A stretch of 64,000 bases of DNA from positions 186,001-250,000 of the forward strand of contig NZ_JAAN01000035.1 in NCBI RefSeq assembly GCF_000559025.1, written 5' to 3'. Origin of the DNA: Luteimonas huabeiensis HB2 (GTDB taxonomy: Bacteria > Pseudomonadota > Gammaproteobacteria > Xanthomonadales > Xanthomonadaceae). The position numbers and the translations under genes were made by a program. A model generated the notes under the pieces. The model searched no databases. It saw nothing but the letters and a program-made list of their open reading frames with translations, and was not told the DNA's origin. Positions 10,022 to 14,472 of this stretch are shown here, piece by piece (the first letter of the stretch is position 1; each line of letters begins with the position of its first letter).

Positions 10022-10600
10022 TCAGCGGTCGAGGAAGTTCTTCAGCAGCGCGTGCCCGTGCTCGGTCAGGATGGACTCGGGGTGGAACTGCACGCCCTCC
10101 ACCGGGTACTCGCGGTGGCGCAGCCCCATGATTTCCTCGATCCCGCCGTCGTCGTGCTCGGTCCAGGCGGTGATCTCCAGGCAGTCGGGCAGGCTTTCGC
10201 GCTCGACCACCAGCGAGTGGTAGCGGGTGGCCTCGTAGCGGTCGGGCAGCGCGGCGAACACGCCCCGCCCCTCGTGCCGGATCGCCGAGGTCTTGCCGTG
10301 CATGATCCGGCCGGCGCGCACCACCTTGCCGCCGTAGGCCTGGCCGATGGCCTGGTGGCCCAGGCACACGCCGAGGATCGGCGTGCTCGCCCCCAGGCGC
10401 TCGATCACCTGCAGCGACACCCCCGCCTCGTCCGGCGTGCACGGGCCGGGCGAGATCACGATGCGGTCCGGCCGCAGGCGCTCGATCGCGTCCGCGTCGA
10501 GGGCGTCGTTGCGCTCCACCCGCACCTCGGCGCCCAGCGTCTGCAGGTACTGCACGAGGTTCCAGGTGAAACTGTCGTAGTTGTCGATCATCAACAGCAT
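10022..10600 (-). CDS. trpG: Anthranilate synthase glutamine amidotransferase subunit
   Basis: Class I glutaminase that feeds ammonia to TrpE; it may also serve PabB. 192 residues, typical length. The catalytic Cys is in [10 protein letters not shown] (about 77-86) and the His/Glu pair in [13 protein letters not shown] near 170. The ATG at 10600 ([15 protein letters not shown]) is the family start; a GTG 23 codons upstream would add an unrelated extension. It heads the trpG-trpD-trpC set and is divergent from the oxidase gene. Confidence 0.96.
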
Positions 10601-10758
10601 GGGTCGGTCCGCGATCGATGGATCGGCGTGGGGCACGCGCGGGGGCGCCAGCTTATCAGCCGCCCGCACGCCCGGCGCGGCGCCGATGGGCTACCCTCGG
10701 GCGCCCCGCCATCGCGCACCGCCCGCTTCCGCCCATGCGCGCCGACGCCCCGCACCAC

Positions 10759-11886
10759 ATGCCCGATACCCACGACCGCTCGCGCCGCCGCCTGCTCGCC
10801 GGCGCGCTGGCCGGCGGCGCGCTGCTGACGCTGGGCGGCTGCGCCACGCGCGCGGCCGGGCCCGTCCCGGCCGCCGGCCGTCTCGCGCTGCCGCTGCCGG
10901 ACCTGGACCCGAGCCTGCTGATCCGCGAGGTCGCCGGCCTGCGACCGTTCCGTCCGGCCGGCTTCCGGGTGGAGCCCGAGCGCTTCGGCGACACCCTGGT
11001 GATCCACCACTACGGCCACGGCGGCTGCGGGGTGACGCTGTCCTGGGGCACCGCCGATCTCGTCCTGCGCCACGCGCTGGCGCAGCCCGAGCGCCGCGCT
11101 GCGGTACTCGGCTGCGGCGCGGTCGGGCTGGCCACGGCGCGGCTGCTGCAGGACCATGGCTTCGAGGTCACGATCTACGCCCGCGAGCTGCCGCCCGATA
11201 CCGTCTCCAACGTCGCCGGCGCGCAGTTCGGGCCCAGCGGGCTGCTCGACGCCGAGCACCGCAGCGACGCCTTCGGCGCCCAGCTCGCGCATGCCGCGCG
11301 CTTCGCCCACCGCCGCTTCCAACTGCTGCCGGGCGAGCGCTACGGCGTGCGCTGGATGCCGCTGTACTTCGTCTCGCGGCGCCCGGCGTGGTCGCCGGGC
11401 TGGGAATGGGCGCTGACCCCGGAGCTGTTCCGCGCGCGCACCCACGCGCCCGGCACGCACCCGCTCGGCGACCGCTACCTGCACGAAGTGCAGACCATGA
11501 TCATCGAGCCGACGATCTACCTGCCGGCGATGACCGACGCCTTCCGCCTGGCCGGCGGCCGCATCGAGGTGCGGGCGCTGCGCGGCGTGGAGGACGTGCG
11601 CGCGCTGCCGGAGCGGCTGGCGGTCAACTGCACCGGGCTCGGCGCGCGGGCGCTGTTCGGCGACGCCAGCCTGCAGCCGGTACGCGGCCAGCTGGCGGTG
11701 ATCGTGCCGCAGCCGGAGATCGACTACGCGGTCATCGGCGCCGGCGGCACCTATCTGTTCCCGCGCCGCGACGGCCTGCAACTGGGCGGCACCCACGAGC
11801 GCGGCGCATGGTCCACGGCCCCCGATCCGGCCACCACCGCGGACATCCTGGCGCGCCACCGTCGCCTGTTCGGCGGCCAGGGCTGA
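10759..11886 (+). CDS. Tat-exported lipoprotein, D-amino-acid oxidase homologue with permuted order
   Basis: 375-residue FAD-dependent oxidoreductase of the DAO superfamily. The N-terminus has a twin-arginine motif (SRRRLL, 8-13), a hydrophobic core and lipobox LGGC (Cys28), so it should be exported folded and anchored outside the inner membrane. Residues 57-107 (GLRPFRP then VIHHYGHGGCGVTLSWG) match what is normally the C-terminal end of D-amino-acid oxidase. They precede the dinucleotide fold at about 115-160 (AVLGCGAVGLATARLL). The middle and end match the rest of the enzyme (VNCTGLGARALF; TYLFPRRDGLQLGG). The order therefore looks circularly permuted. The equivalent of the substrate-binding Arg (in GLRPFRP) and one active-site Tyr (TYLFP) remain. 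An ATG at 10735 is an alternative start. Substrate unknown; D-amino acid oxidation is inferred. Confidence 0.75.
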   Translation: MPDTHDRSRRRLLAGALAGGALLTLGGCATRAAGPVPAAGRLALPLPDLDPSLLIREVAGLRPFRPAGFRVEPERFGDTLVIHHYGHGGCGVTLSWGTADLVLRHALAQPERRAAVLGCGAVGLATARLLQDHGFEVTIYARELPPDTVSNVAGAQFGPSGLLDAEHRSDAFGAQLAHAARFAHRRFQLLPGERYGVRWMPLYFVSRRPAWSPGWEWALTPELFRARTHAPGTHPLGDRYLHEVQTMIIEPTIYLPAMTDAFRLAGGRIEVRALRGVEDVRALPERLAVNCTGLGARALFGDASLQPVRGQLAVIVPQPEIDYAVIGAGGTYLFPRRDGLQLGGTHERGAWSTAPDPATTADILARHRRLFGGQG

Positions 11887-11905: not shown

Positions 11906-13405
11906 CTACAGCCCCCGCGCCGCCTGCGCCACCGCGCGGAACAGCGCGCGGCCCTTGTTCATGGTCTCGTCCCATTCCTTCTCGGGATCGGAGTCGTAGA
12001 CGATGCCGGCGCCGGCCTGCACGTACAGGCGGCCGTCCTGGATCACCGCGGTGCGGATCGCGATCGCGGTGTCGGCGTCGCCGTGCCAGCCGATGTAGCC
12101 GACCGCGCCGGAATACACGTTGCGCTTGACCGGTTCGAGGCTGCGGACGATCTCCAGCGCGCGCACCTTGGGCGCGCCGCTGACGGTACCGGCCGGGAAC
12201 GTCGCGCGCAGCACGTCGGCGTAGCTCAGGCCGGGCTTCAGGCGCCCGGTCACTTCGCTGACGATGTGCATGACGTGGCTGTAGCGCTCGATGACGAAGC
12301 GCTCGCCGAGTTCCACGCTGCCCGGCTCGGAGACGTGGCCGACGTCGTTGCGGCCGAGGTCGATCAGCATCAGGTGCTCGGCGCGCTCCTTGGGATCGGC
12401 CAGCAGCTCCGCCTCCAGCGCCTGGTCCTCCTCCGGCGTGGCGCCGCGCGGGCGGGTGCCGGCGATCGGGCGCACGGTGACCTCGCTGCCGCCGTCGCCG
12501 GTTCCCTGCAGGCGCACCAGGATCTCCGGCGAGCTGCCGACCACCTGGGTGCCGCCGACGTCGAGGAAGTACATGTAGGGCGACGGGTTCAGCGCGCGCA
12601 GGGCGCGGTAGACGTCCACCGGCCGCGCGTTGAACGGCACCGACATCCGCTGCGAGAGCACGACCTGGAAGGCGTCGCCCGAGGCGATGTATTCCTTGGT
12701 CTTCTCCACCGCGGCGATGAAGCCCTCGCGGGTGAAGCCGGAGACGAAGTCGGCCTCGTCCAGCGCCGCCGGCTGCAGCGTCTCCGGGTAGCCGGCGCCG
12801 CCCTGCCGCAGGCGGTGGGTCAGCGCGTCCAGCCGGCGGCCGGCGCGCGCCCAGGCCTGCGGCTGGCGCGGGTCCGCGTGCACGATCAGGTACAGCCGGC
12901 CCTTGAGGTTGTCGAACACCGCGACCTCCTCGCTGCGCATCAGCAGGATGTCGGGCGTCCCCAGCTCGTCGCGCACGTCCGCCCGCGCCGCGCGCGCCAG
13001 GCGCGGCTCGATGTACTCGATGCACTCGAAGCCGAACCAGCCGACCAGGCCGCCGGCGAAGCCCGGCAGACCCGGCAGGCGCGGCACGCGGTGCTCGGCG
13101 CGCAGGCGCTCGACCTCGGCGAACGGGTCCTCGACCTCGCGCGTCTCGATCGTCTCGCCGTACTCGCCGACGGTCAGCGTGCGGCCTTGGAAGGCGTACA
13201 CGCGCGAGGCCGGCAGGCCGATGATCGAGTAGCGGCCGAAGCGCTCGCCGCCCTCGACCGATTCGAACAGGTAGGTGTGCGGGCCGTCGGCGAGCTTGAG
13301 GTAGACCGACAGCGGGGTGTCGAGGTCGGACAGCACCTCGCGCACCACCGGGATGCGGGTATGGCCTTCGGCGGCGAAGCGGTCGAACTGCTGCTGGGTG
13401 ATCAC
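11906..13405 (-). CDS. trpE: Anthranilate synthase component I
   Basis: Converts chorismate to anthranilate with ammonia from TrpG; the committed and feedback-inhibited step of tryptophan synthesis. 499 residues. N-terminal regulatory region with LLES-type element [17 protein letters not shown] (about 45-62). The catalytic chorismate-binding domain contains [38 protein letters not shown] and [14 protein letters not shown]. The GTG at 13405 is chosen because GGAG sits 6 bases upstream and it gives the family start [19 protein letters not shown]; an ATG at 13456 is the alternative. It is separated from trpGDC by the oppositely oriented oxidase gene. Confidence 0.96.
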
Positions 13406-13506
13406 GAATGGCTCCACGATGGATGGACGGGCGACGGCGGCTGGCGGCGTCACCATCGCGCGCGGGCGGCGGGCATCGGGAGCGGGCGGTGTCGAAACAT
13501 GGGGCG

Positions 13507-14472
13507 CTACTGTAGCGGCTGCGCGTGCGGCTCGCGCGTGCGCGCCAGCAGCGGCGAATCCGCCGGCAGCGCCATCCGCACCCGGCCGGGCACGCAGTCG
13601 ATGCGGAAATGGCGCGCCTGGACCGGCTCGCCGTCGAGGTTGAGCGGCAGCGGCTGCCGGGATTCGATCTCGATCCACGGCAGCCGCGCGCGCGCGGCGA
13701 CCTGTTCCAGGGCGGCGGCCTTGCCTTCGCTGACCACCGCGCCGATCGTCGCGGCCACCTCGCCGGAGAGCTCCGGCACCACGGTCACGTCCAGCAGCCC
13801 GTCGTCGATCAGCGCCTCCGGGCACAGCGCCTGCCCGCCGCCGGCCTGGCGGCCGTTGCCCACGCCCAGGGCGATGAAGTCGCCGGCCCACTCGAAGCCG
13901 GGGCCGCGCAGCCGTGCCGGCGTGGGCTCGATGCGCCCCAGCCGGGCGATGCCGGTCAGGAAGTAGGCCAGCCCGCCCAGCATCTTCTTCAGACCTTCGC
14001 GGGTCTCCAGGGTGATCCGGGTACCGAAACCGCCGCTGGCGAGGTTGGCGCACCAATGCACGGCGTCGTCGGCGCGCAGCCGCAGCAGGTCGACCGCGAC
14101 CGGCGCGGCGCCGGCGATCAGCGCCAGCGCGTCCGCGGGCGCCTCGGGGATGCCGGCCGCGCTGGCGAAATCGTTGGCGGTGCCCAGCGGCAACACGCCC
14201 AGCGCCGGCAGCGCGCCGGCGTCGCGATCGGTGCCGGCGAGCGCCCCGGCCACTTCGCGCAGCGTGCCGTCGCCGCCGCCGGCGACCACGTGGGTGGCGC
14301 CGGCGGCGACGGCCTCGCGCACGTAGCGCTCGGCGTCGCCGCGTTCCCAGGTCACCCGCACCGCCAGCCGCCGGCCGGCCTCGCGCTGCGCGGCCACGGC
14401 CTCGCGCAGGGCCTCGTCGCCCGCGGCCTTGCCGTTGAGGATCAGGAACCAGGAGCTTGCGTCCATGGACAT
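13507..14472 (-). CDS. YegS/diacylglycerol-kinase-like lipid kinase
   Basis: 321-residue member of the DAGK catalytic family related to YegS, soluble kinases that phosphorylate lipids such as phosphatidylglycerol or diacylglycerol. The nucleotide-binding [10 protein letters not shown] motif is at about 70-79, followed by [13 protein letters not shown]; the C-terminal beta-sandwich begins near 130 ([31 protein letters not shown]). No membrane segment. Starts at 14472 (MSMDASSWF) or 14466 are both possible, with no clear ribosome binding site. It lies upstream of trpE on the same strand with 101 bp between them. Confidence 0.82.

Follow-up and report, generated by a model that had tools for sequence, protein, structure and literature searches.

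A gene in a 64,000-nucleotide stretch of the Luteimonas huabeiensis HB2 genome (the window, by which we mean the whole stretch that was analysed) encodes a protein whose sequence marks it, almost certainly, as a natural circular permutant of the D-amino-acid oxidase (DAAO) fold. DAAO is familiar both as a textbook example of a flavoenzyme and as a tool of biotechnology. The permuted order is a family trait, apparently unreported in the portions of the literature that were searched. The open reading frame runs on the plus strand from an ATG at 10759 to a stop at 11886, and its product has 375 amino acids. Its neighbours are trpG on one side and trpE on the other, each on the minus strand, an adjacency that says nothing on the function of the permuted gene. 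The features of the locus and of the protein are:

10022..10669, minus strand: trpG, a neighbouring gene (GATase match)
10759..11886, plus strand: permuted DAAO-family flavoprotein gene, 375 aa plus stop (open reading frame, phmmer, profile match)
10759..10839, plus strand: Tat-like signal peptide, residues 1-27, with the motif SRRRLL (sequence; R9 and R10 are nearly invariant in A1)
10831..10842, plus strand: putative lipobox LGGC, Cys28 (sequence)
10894..11070, plus strand: moved segment, residues 46-104, the C-terminal part of an ordinary DAAO (profile match, positions 253-311 of 316)
10936..10953, plus strand: GxRPxR motif GLRPFR, residues 60-65, in which R62 is the equivalent of pig R283 (alignment; motif in the excerpts of PMC9844085)
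11005..11031, plus strand: HHYGHGGCG, residues 83-91, the flavin-closing loop (alignment)
11050..11094, plus strand: joint, residues 98-112, with the presumed former C-terminal helix and a short linker that leads into the first Rossmann strand
11095..11868, plus strand: residues 113-370, the N-terminal and middle part of an ordinary DAAO (profile match, positions 3-252)
11110..11127, plus strand: GxGxxG as GCGAVG, residues 118-123 (Pfam match, alignment)
11752..11754, plus strand: Y332, the equivalent of pig Y228 (alignment)
11906..14056, minus strand: trpE, a convergent neighbouring gene (Chorismate_bind and Anth_synt_I_N matches)

Chain order of the window protein

The preliminary description had placed the closing segment of the FAD site ahead of the dinucleotide fold, and this is the order we found, with GLRPFR and HHYGHGGCG preceding GCGAVG. 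To score it, a profile of ordinary-order DAAOs was built from nine proteins (seven bacterial ones, pig DAAO and 6rkf, a D-aspartate oxidase), each of which, as a member of the profile, gives one collinear match. In the window protein, profile positions 253-311 match residues 46-104 with 58.3 bits and positions 3-252 match residues 113-370 with 143.0 bits; the two pieces, in swapped order, abut in the profile with neither gap nor overlap, and the whole protein scores 203.3 bits. When the mature chain was cut at each position, rejoined and rescored against the same profile, the best rotations were those cut after residues 105-112, giving one single match of 204 bits, and the top score in 200 shuffles was 3.5 bits. 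Since the rotated chain scores 204 bits and the native one 203.3, rotation joins the pieces and adds little score.

With the Pfam DAO profile, the best stretch covers residues 114-371 (profile 2-297 of 353). In the whole-genome scan the main match covers profile positions 2-299, and a weak second match, which covers positions 219-350 and is under the curated cut-off (20.7 bits, E 6.7e-4), lies upstream of it. Once rotated, the chain matches nearly the whole profile in one stretch, 2-350 of 353, with 117.8 bits (103.7 unrotated), as expected of full-length DAAO homology. Searches of the PDB with phmmer aligned residues 106-366 with 7-266 of 6rkf and residues 47-100 with 272-328; pig DAAO was likewise matched as two stretches in swapped order, and 7ct4 was also found. 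After rotation 6rkf is matched in a single stretch (4-322 to 14-327) with 115.9 bits, compared with 111.2 for the two stretches before, and both 6rkf and pig DAAO are homologous to the window protein over nearly the whole length; for 7ct4 a weak separate match at the front persists. The swapped order is absent from all 25 PDB sequences matched.

A search for homologues of the same order, proposed in the preliminary description, revealed a large family that extends beyond this genome. All of the 149 extracted relatives have the swapped order and a single YGHG, and in none of them is the C-terminal end of the profile matched downstream; these relatives were retrieved with permuted queries, which biases the count, and at least three of them are repeat loci. 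At the level of sequence, the earlier proposal of a circular permutation is thus supported, because the profile coverage is complementary and non-overlapping, because the rotation scan yields one match and because every extracted relative shares the order. What can be read directly is the order itself, the exact way in which the two pieces complement each other, conservation across distant bacteria, purifying selection and the retention of the DAAO motifs.

As to the ends of the chain, the preliminary description was right in part. The protein does stop without a C-terminal segment, but it does not end just after TYLFPRRDGLQLGG, which finishes at residue 344 and is followed by 31 more residues; the breakpoint is not directly after LGG but beyond the next, probably helical, stretch downstream of LGGT. 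As had been claimed, no second copy of the moved segment was found at the C-terminus: the HxYGHGG pattern has its sole exact occurrence in the DNA at 11008-11024, one match with two mismatches elsewhere being at chance level, and the C-terminus gives no profile match to that segment. A C-terminus restored by a frameshift is excluded, because the stop codon of the convergent trpE starts 19 bases past the stop of the gene, which leaves no room downstream for a frameshifted tail.

Two explanations that would do away with the permutation can be weighed here. The front segment could be a separate, added domain, the protein then being an ordinary DAO minus its C-terminus; nothing except the position of the segment at the front speaks for this, and we regard it as very improbable, given that the segment fills precisely the missing profile positions (253-311 after 3-252) and that 149/149 rows have one YGHG and none has a C-terminal copy. 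An artefact of assembly or gene prediction, for which one may cite the draft state of the genome (86 contigs), is scarcely conceivable. A second genome of the genus has the same order in a 94% identical gene, likewise flanked by trpG and trpE, and this identical setting disfavours misassembly; further relatives occur in single-contig genomes. Moreover, dN and dS (NG86) between the window gene and the 94% homologue are 0.037 and 0.15, and for a 73% homologue, which trpE adjoins, they are 0.19 and 0.684; dN is well under dS, and the window gene is therefore maintained by purifying selection. Thirteen loci were examined, and in the remaining 11 trpG and trpE are absent from the flanks (1.5 kb, or less at L010, which lies at a contig end).

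Subtypes, tree and spread of the family

The relatives fall into three subtypes. Subtype A (93 rows, including the window protein) keeps GLRP and mostly TYxFPR..LGG, and in 85 of its 93 rows the spacing from YGHGGxG to GxGxxG is 26 residues. In subtype B (51 rows) the motif reads C[TLI]RPF, and both LGG and the Tyr are gone. Among the five rows of subtype C are the rhizobial and the actinobacterial genes; four of the rows are signal-less and one (L064) has a Tat-like front. Within the genus of the window genome there are four A genes and five B genes, in different genomes. The breakpoints lie in the same region in all three subtypes, although the match ends scatter across about 25 positions of the profile. 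Subtype B loci such as L005-L009 and L011-L035, in which the LGG/Tyr signature is lost, keep the Arg, YGHGG and GxGxxG; the loss of the signature suggests that the subtype B enzymes may act on another substrate.

An ingroup tree of 70 rows separates the 61 permuted rows from the 9 ordinary ones with an SH-aLRT of 100. Rooting with two distant DAO proteins from the same genome, an outgroup that leaves the root unsure, gave a best tree in which the permuted rows do not stand together, three subtype C rows being placed beside the ordinary DAAOs with weak support (80/62). In that rooted analysis the permuted rows form a single clade in 22% of 200 bootstrap trees, and one permuted clade is not rejected by the AU test (p 0.436). 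The sequences are compatible with a single origin of the permutation, without rooting or dating it.

Searched in its natural order, the window protein has relatives in 9 of the 52 genomes of the genus. Of 297 genomes in the taxonomic family, 43 give a match at E <=0.001, in some cases weak or partial, and 34 of these reach <=1e-30. With profile A1 at 1e-20, matches were obtained in 13/200 genomes of the order, 20/398 of the phylum and 1/369 of the class, the last being the window genome itself; these counts are lower bounds, as 4 to 9 candidates were scored per genome, and the samples include the window genome. A tblastn scan of named genomes returned at least 583 relatives, of which the best 80 were kept. 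These 80 are labelled as Pseudomonadota, Acidobacteriota, Gemmatimonadota, Verrucomicrobiota, Bacteroidota (Ekhidna), Myxococcota, Zixiibacteriota and a bin labelled Dadabacteria, many of them being metagenome bins whose labels are possibly wrong.

The permuted form also occurs on plasmid records of Niveispirillum, Rhizobium, Bradyrhizobium, Mesorhizobium, Kozakia and the actinobacterium Nonomuraea, and relatives of ordinary order occur on plasmid records of Tsukamurella, Streptomyces, Streptantibioticus, Nocardia and Mycobacterium. At 1e-25, an ordinary-order profile made from seven of the plasmid-record proteins has matches in 9/299 genomes of the phylum; the permuted profile finds each of these genomes too, and all nine matches end early, at 193-273 of 314. 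At this threshold, with at most 7 candidates scored per genome, the ordinary-order form was unseen among the 299 genomes. The Actinomycetota proteins L153-L159 are ordinary-order bacterial DAAO homologues of 305-372 aa with the dinucleotide fold first, and no export signal was seen in them by eye (the starts of L154, L156 and L157 were chosen by hand). In three genomes (G256, G152 and G248) the matches are split into several pieces, one of the G256 pieces having an internal stop, and these may be decayed copies.

Export, active site and probable function

The twin-arginine signal and lipobox noted earlier hold at the level of motifs. The chain opens with MPDTHDRSRRRLLAGALAGGALLTLGGC, which resembles a twin-arginine signal closing in a lipobox; by inspection and motif, residues 1-28 contain a twin-Arg (RRR at 9-11), a hydrophobic stretch and LGGC ending at Cys28, which we take to be the lipobox. 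TatC is encoded in the window genome (1.9e-71). At chosen starts, a strict twin-Arg motif is present in 123/149 relatives and a lipobox in 87/149; by subtype, RRx[FLIMVW][LIVMFAG] is found in 75/93 A, 47/51 B and 1/5 C rows and the lipobox in 67 A, 20 B and 0 C rows, counts that lean upward because the starts were picked partly to take in the twin-Arg. When full open frames were used with no start chosen, 71 of 80 named-genome rows had RRx[FLIMVW] at a distance of 45-100 residues ahead of YGHG; in control stretches of equal length, taken further along these proteins, it was present in 180 of 1600. Proteins cross by Tat already folded and loaded with their cofactor, a route that would suit an FAD enzyme. 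We infer that the window protein is exported and lipid-anchored at Cys28.

By alignment, the window protein has GxGxxG, GxRPxR, YGHGGxG, the carboxylate-binding Arg and one Tyr. GxGxxG, GxRPxR, YGHG, the carboxylate Arg and one of the two Tyr are shared with 6rkf and with DAAOs (pig 1dao and 1an9; 7ct4). Unlike the window protein, 6rkf, pig DAAO and 7ct4 have the other chain order and no Tat-lipoprotein front. With the residue numbers and roles that we assume for pig DAAO (R283, Y228, Y224, H307, G313, Q53, Y55), the equivalents of R283 (R62), H307 (H83) and G313 (G89) are kept in 149/149 rows. The position of Y228 (Y332) holds Tyr in 70/93 and His in 20/93 subtype A rows, and Tyr in 0 of the 48 subtype B rows shown (of 51). 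An equivalent of Y224 is missing in the window protein, and the positions of Q53 and Y55 differ.

According to the excerpted text of PMC9844085, the GxGxxG FAD fingerprint must stand at the N-terminus of a DAAO, the Arg and Tyr of the yeast enzymes bind the carboxylate, and bacterial DAAOs conserve GxRPxR and YGHGGxG, the Tyr not always being kept; the same text cautions that some glycine oxidases carry GxRPxR and YGHGGxG too. In the window protein the fingerprint is not at the N-terminus, the order being swapped. By homology the window protein is of the DAAO kind, and by its order it is outside the usual DAAO definition. No report of a natural permuted or exported DAAO was found in the portions of literature searched, which leaves its absence from print unproven, and the excerpts of PMC4432964 and PMC4699246 contain no mention of a natural permuted DAAO. 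The latter excerpt describes the role of bacterial DAAOs as largely unknown. LucY (PMC4408115) is a MurB protein whose permutation was engineered, and PMC12502724 lists an Asaia protein named D-amino acid oxidase among released proteins. Where four plasmid records are annotated at the permuted gene, the product name is just FAD-dependent oxidoreductase.

Taken as a whole, we consider it probable that the window protein is an old circular permutant of DAAO that is exported folded through Tat, lipid-anchored, and probably oxidises D-amino acids outside the cytoplasm; D-amino-acid oxidation, taken as a separate claim, is one that we favour with less assurance. According to this model, the part that used to be C-terminal (strand, GxRPxR, YGHGGxG loop and final helix) would lead the chain, and from its final helix a short linker would run into the Rossmann strand that used to be N-terminal. 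Because the former C-terminal helix would end beside this first Rossmann strand, a few linker residues could close the ring. The ring would have been opened, giving the new ends, in the loop that joins the stretch following LGGT to the strand ahead of GLRP. The permutant would fold like DAAO and take up FAD in the cytoplasm, pass folded through Tat, and then receive its lipid anchor at Cys28. Outside the cytoplasm D-amino acids, for example from peptidoglycan or peptides, would be turned into 2-oxo acids, with R62 and Y332 presumably holding the substrate carboxylate.

A less likely alternative is a permuted flavoenzyme of the DAO fold with another substrate or acceptor. Examples would be an oxidase of glycine or secondary amines that is exported, or a dehydrogenase whose electrons go to the respiratory chain instead of to oxygen. 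The 51 subtype B rows, which are without the LGG and Tyr signature, could point to another substrate; the window protein, however, retains the DAAO set, and among its relatives in the PDB the D-aspartate and D-amino-acid oxidases come first. For a glycine oxidase one may invoke ThiO (TIGR02352), which shares the DAO superfamily and presumably has the ordinary chain order. ThiO is the best NCBIfam match and is matched by 61/61 A3 members (best E-value 1.1e-19), but the window protein reaches 46.5 bits with it, far under the cut-off of 250.8. Another electron acceptor would fit the cytochrome c gene after the subtype B gene of Kozakia and the CxxCH proteins downstream at two subtype A loci, yet a signal-bearing CxxCH protein lies downstream at just 3 of 145 loci.

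If the anchored, exported D-amino-acid oxidase that we prefer is indeed a natural permutant with relatives in many phyla, the FAD fold of DAAO can accommodate new termini in one defined loop, and the permutation would explain why ordinary-order profiles see these genes in part. The family would supply many exported flavoenzymes, possibly D-amino-acid oxidases, and makes the bacterial use of D-amino acids outside the cytoplasm a testable question. One may speculate, quite tentatively, that the permutation founded a branch of exported, lipid-anchored D-amino-acid oxidases across many phyla, the main DAAO-like enzyme of Pseudomonadota. According to this speculation, with the new N-terminus placed in a surface loop the FAD-binding strand no longer sat at the chain end, which permitted a signal peptide and a membrane anchor, and subtype B then changed its substrate or electron acceptor.

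Neighbouring genes of the relatives

Among 90 near neighbours scanned, a subset of the 145 called that was picked by distance and length, no neighbour family recurs above 11; the commonest of the families listed (25 of 98) are AAA (11), Proteasome (7) and Cation_efflux (4). A generally conserved neighbourhood was thus not found among them. A general cytochrome c partner was rejected, 3 being the number of loci with a signal-bearing CxxCH protein among the 145 with enough downstream sequence. In Kozakia (L152, 681-4493) the subtype B gene is followed by the cytochrome c gene, a possible respiratory electron acceptor, and preceded by an S9-type hydrolase.

At sphingomonad loci (L091 3424-6453, L101 3387-6419, L145 3207-6318 and others) the permuted gene lies between hslV and hslU. 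HslV and HslU were confirmed by NCBIfam at 3/3 loci tested, and AAA_2 and Proteasome are found in 10 and 7, respectively, of the 90 neighbours.

On rhizobial plasmids of Rhizobium and Bradyrhizobium (L148 1482-5708 and L150 1366-5693), a signal-less permuted gene of subtype C is preceded by an FAD-binding oxidoreductase, of the BBE type in Rhizobium, and directly followed by a ThDP enzyme resembling 2-oxo-acid decarboxylases, whose best NCBIfam model is indolepyruvate/phenylpyruvate decarboxylase, below the cut-off. Such a neighbour fits the production of 2-oxo acids by the permuted enzyme, and the cluster may represent an uncharacterised amino-acid pathway. A ThDP enzyme also follows the permuted gene of Mesorhizobium onobrychidis (L151, 2926-3989), which is annotated as two adjoining genes and is probably a broken copy.
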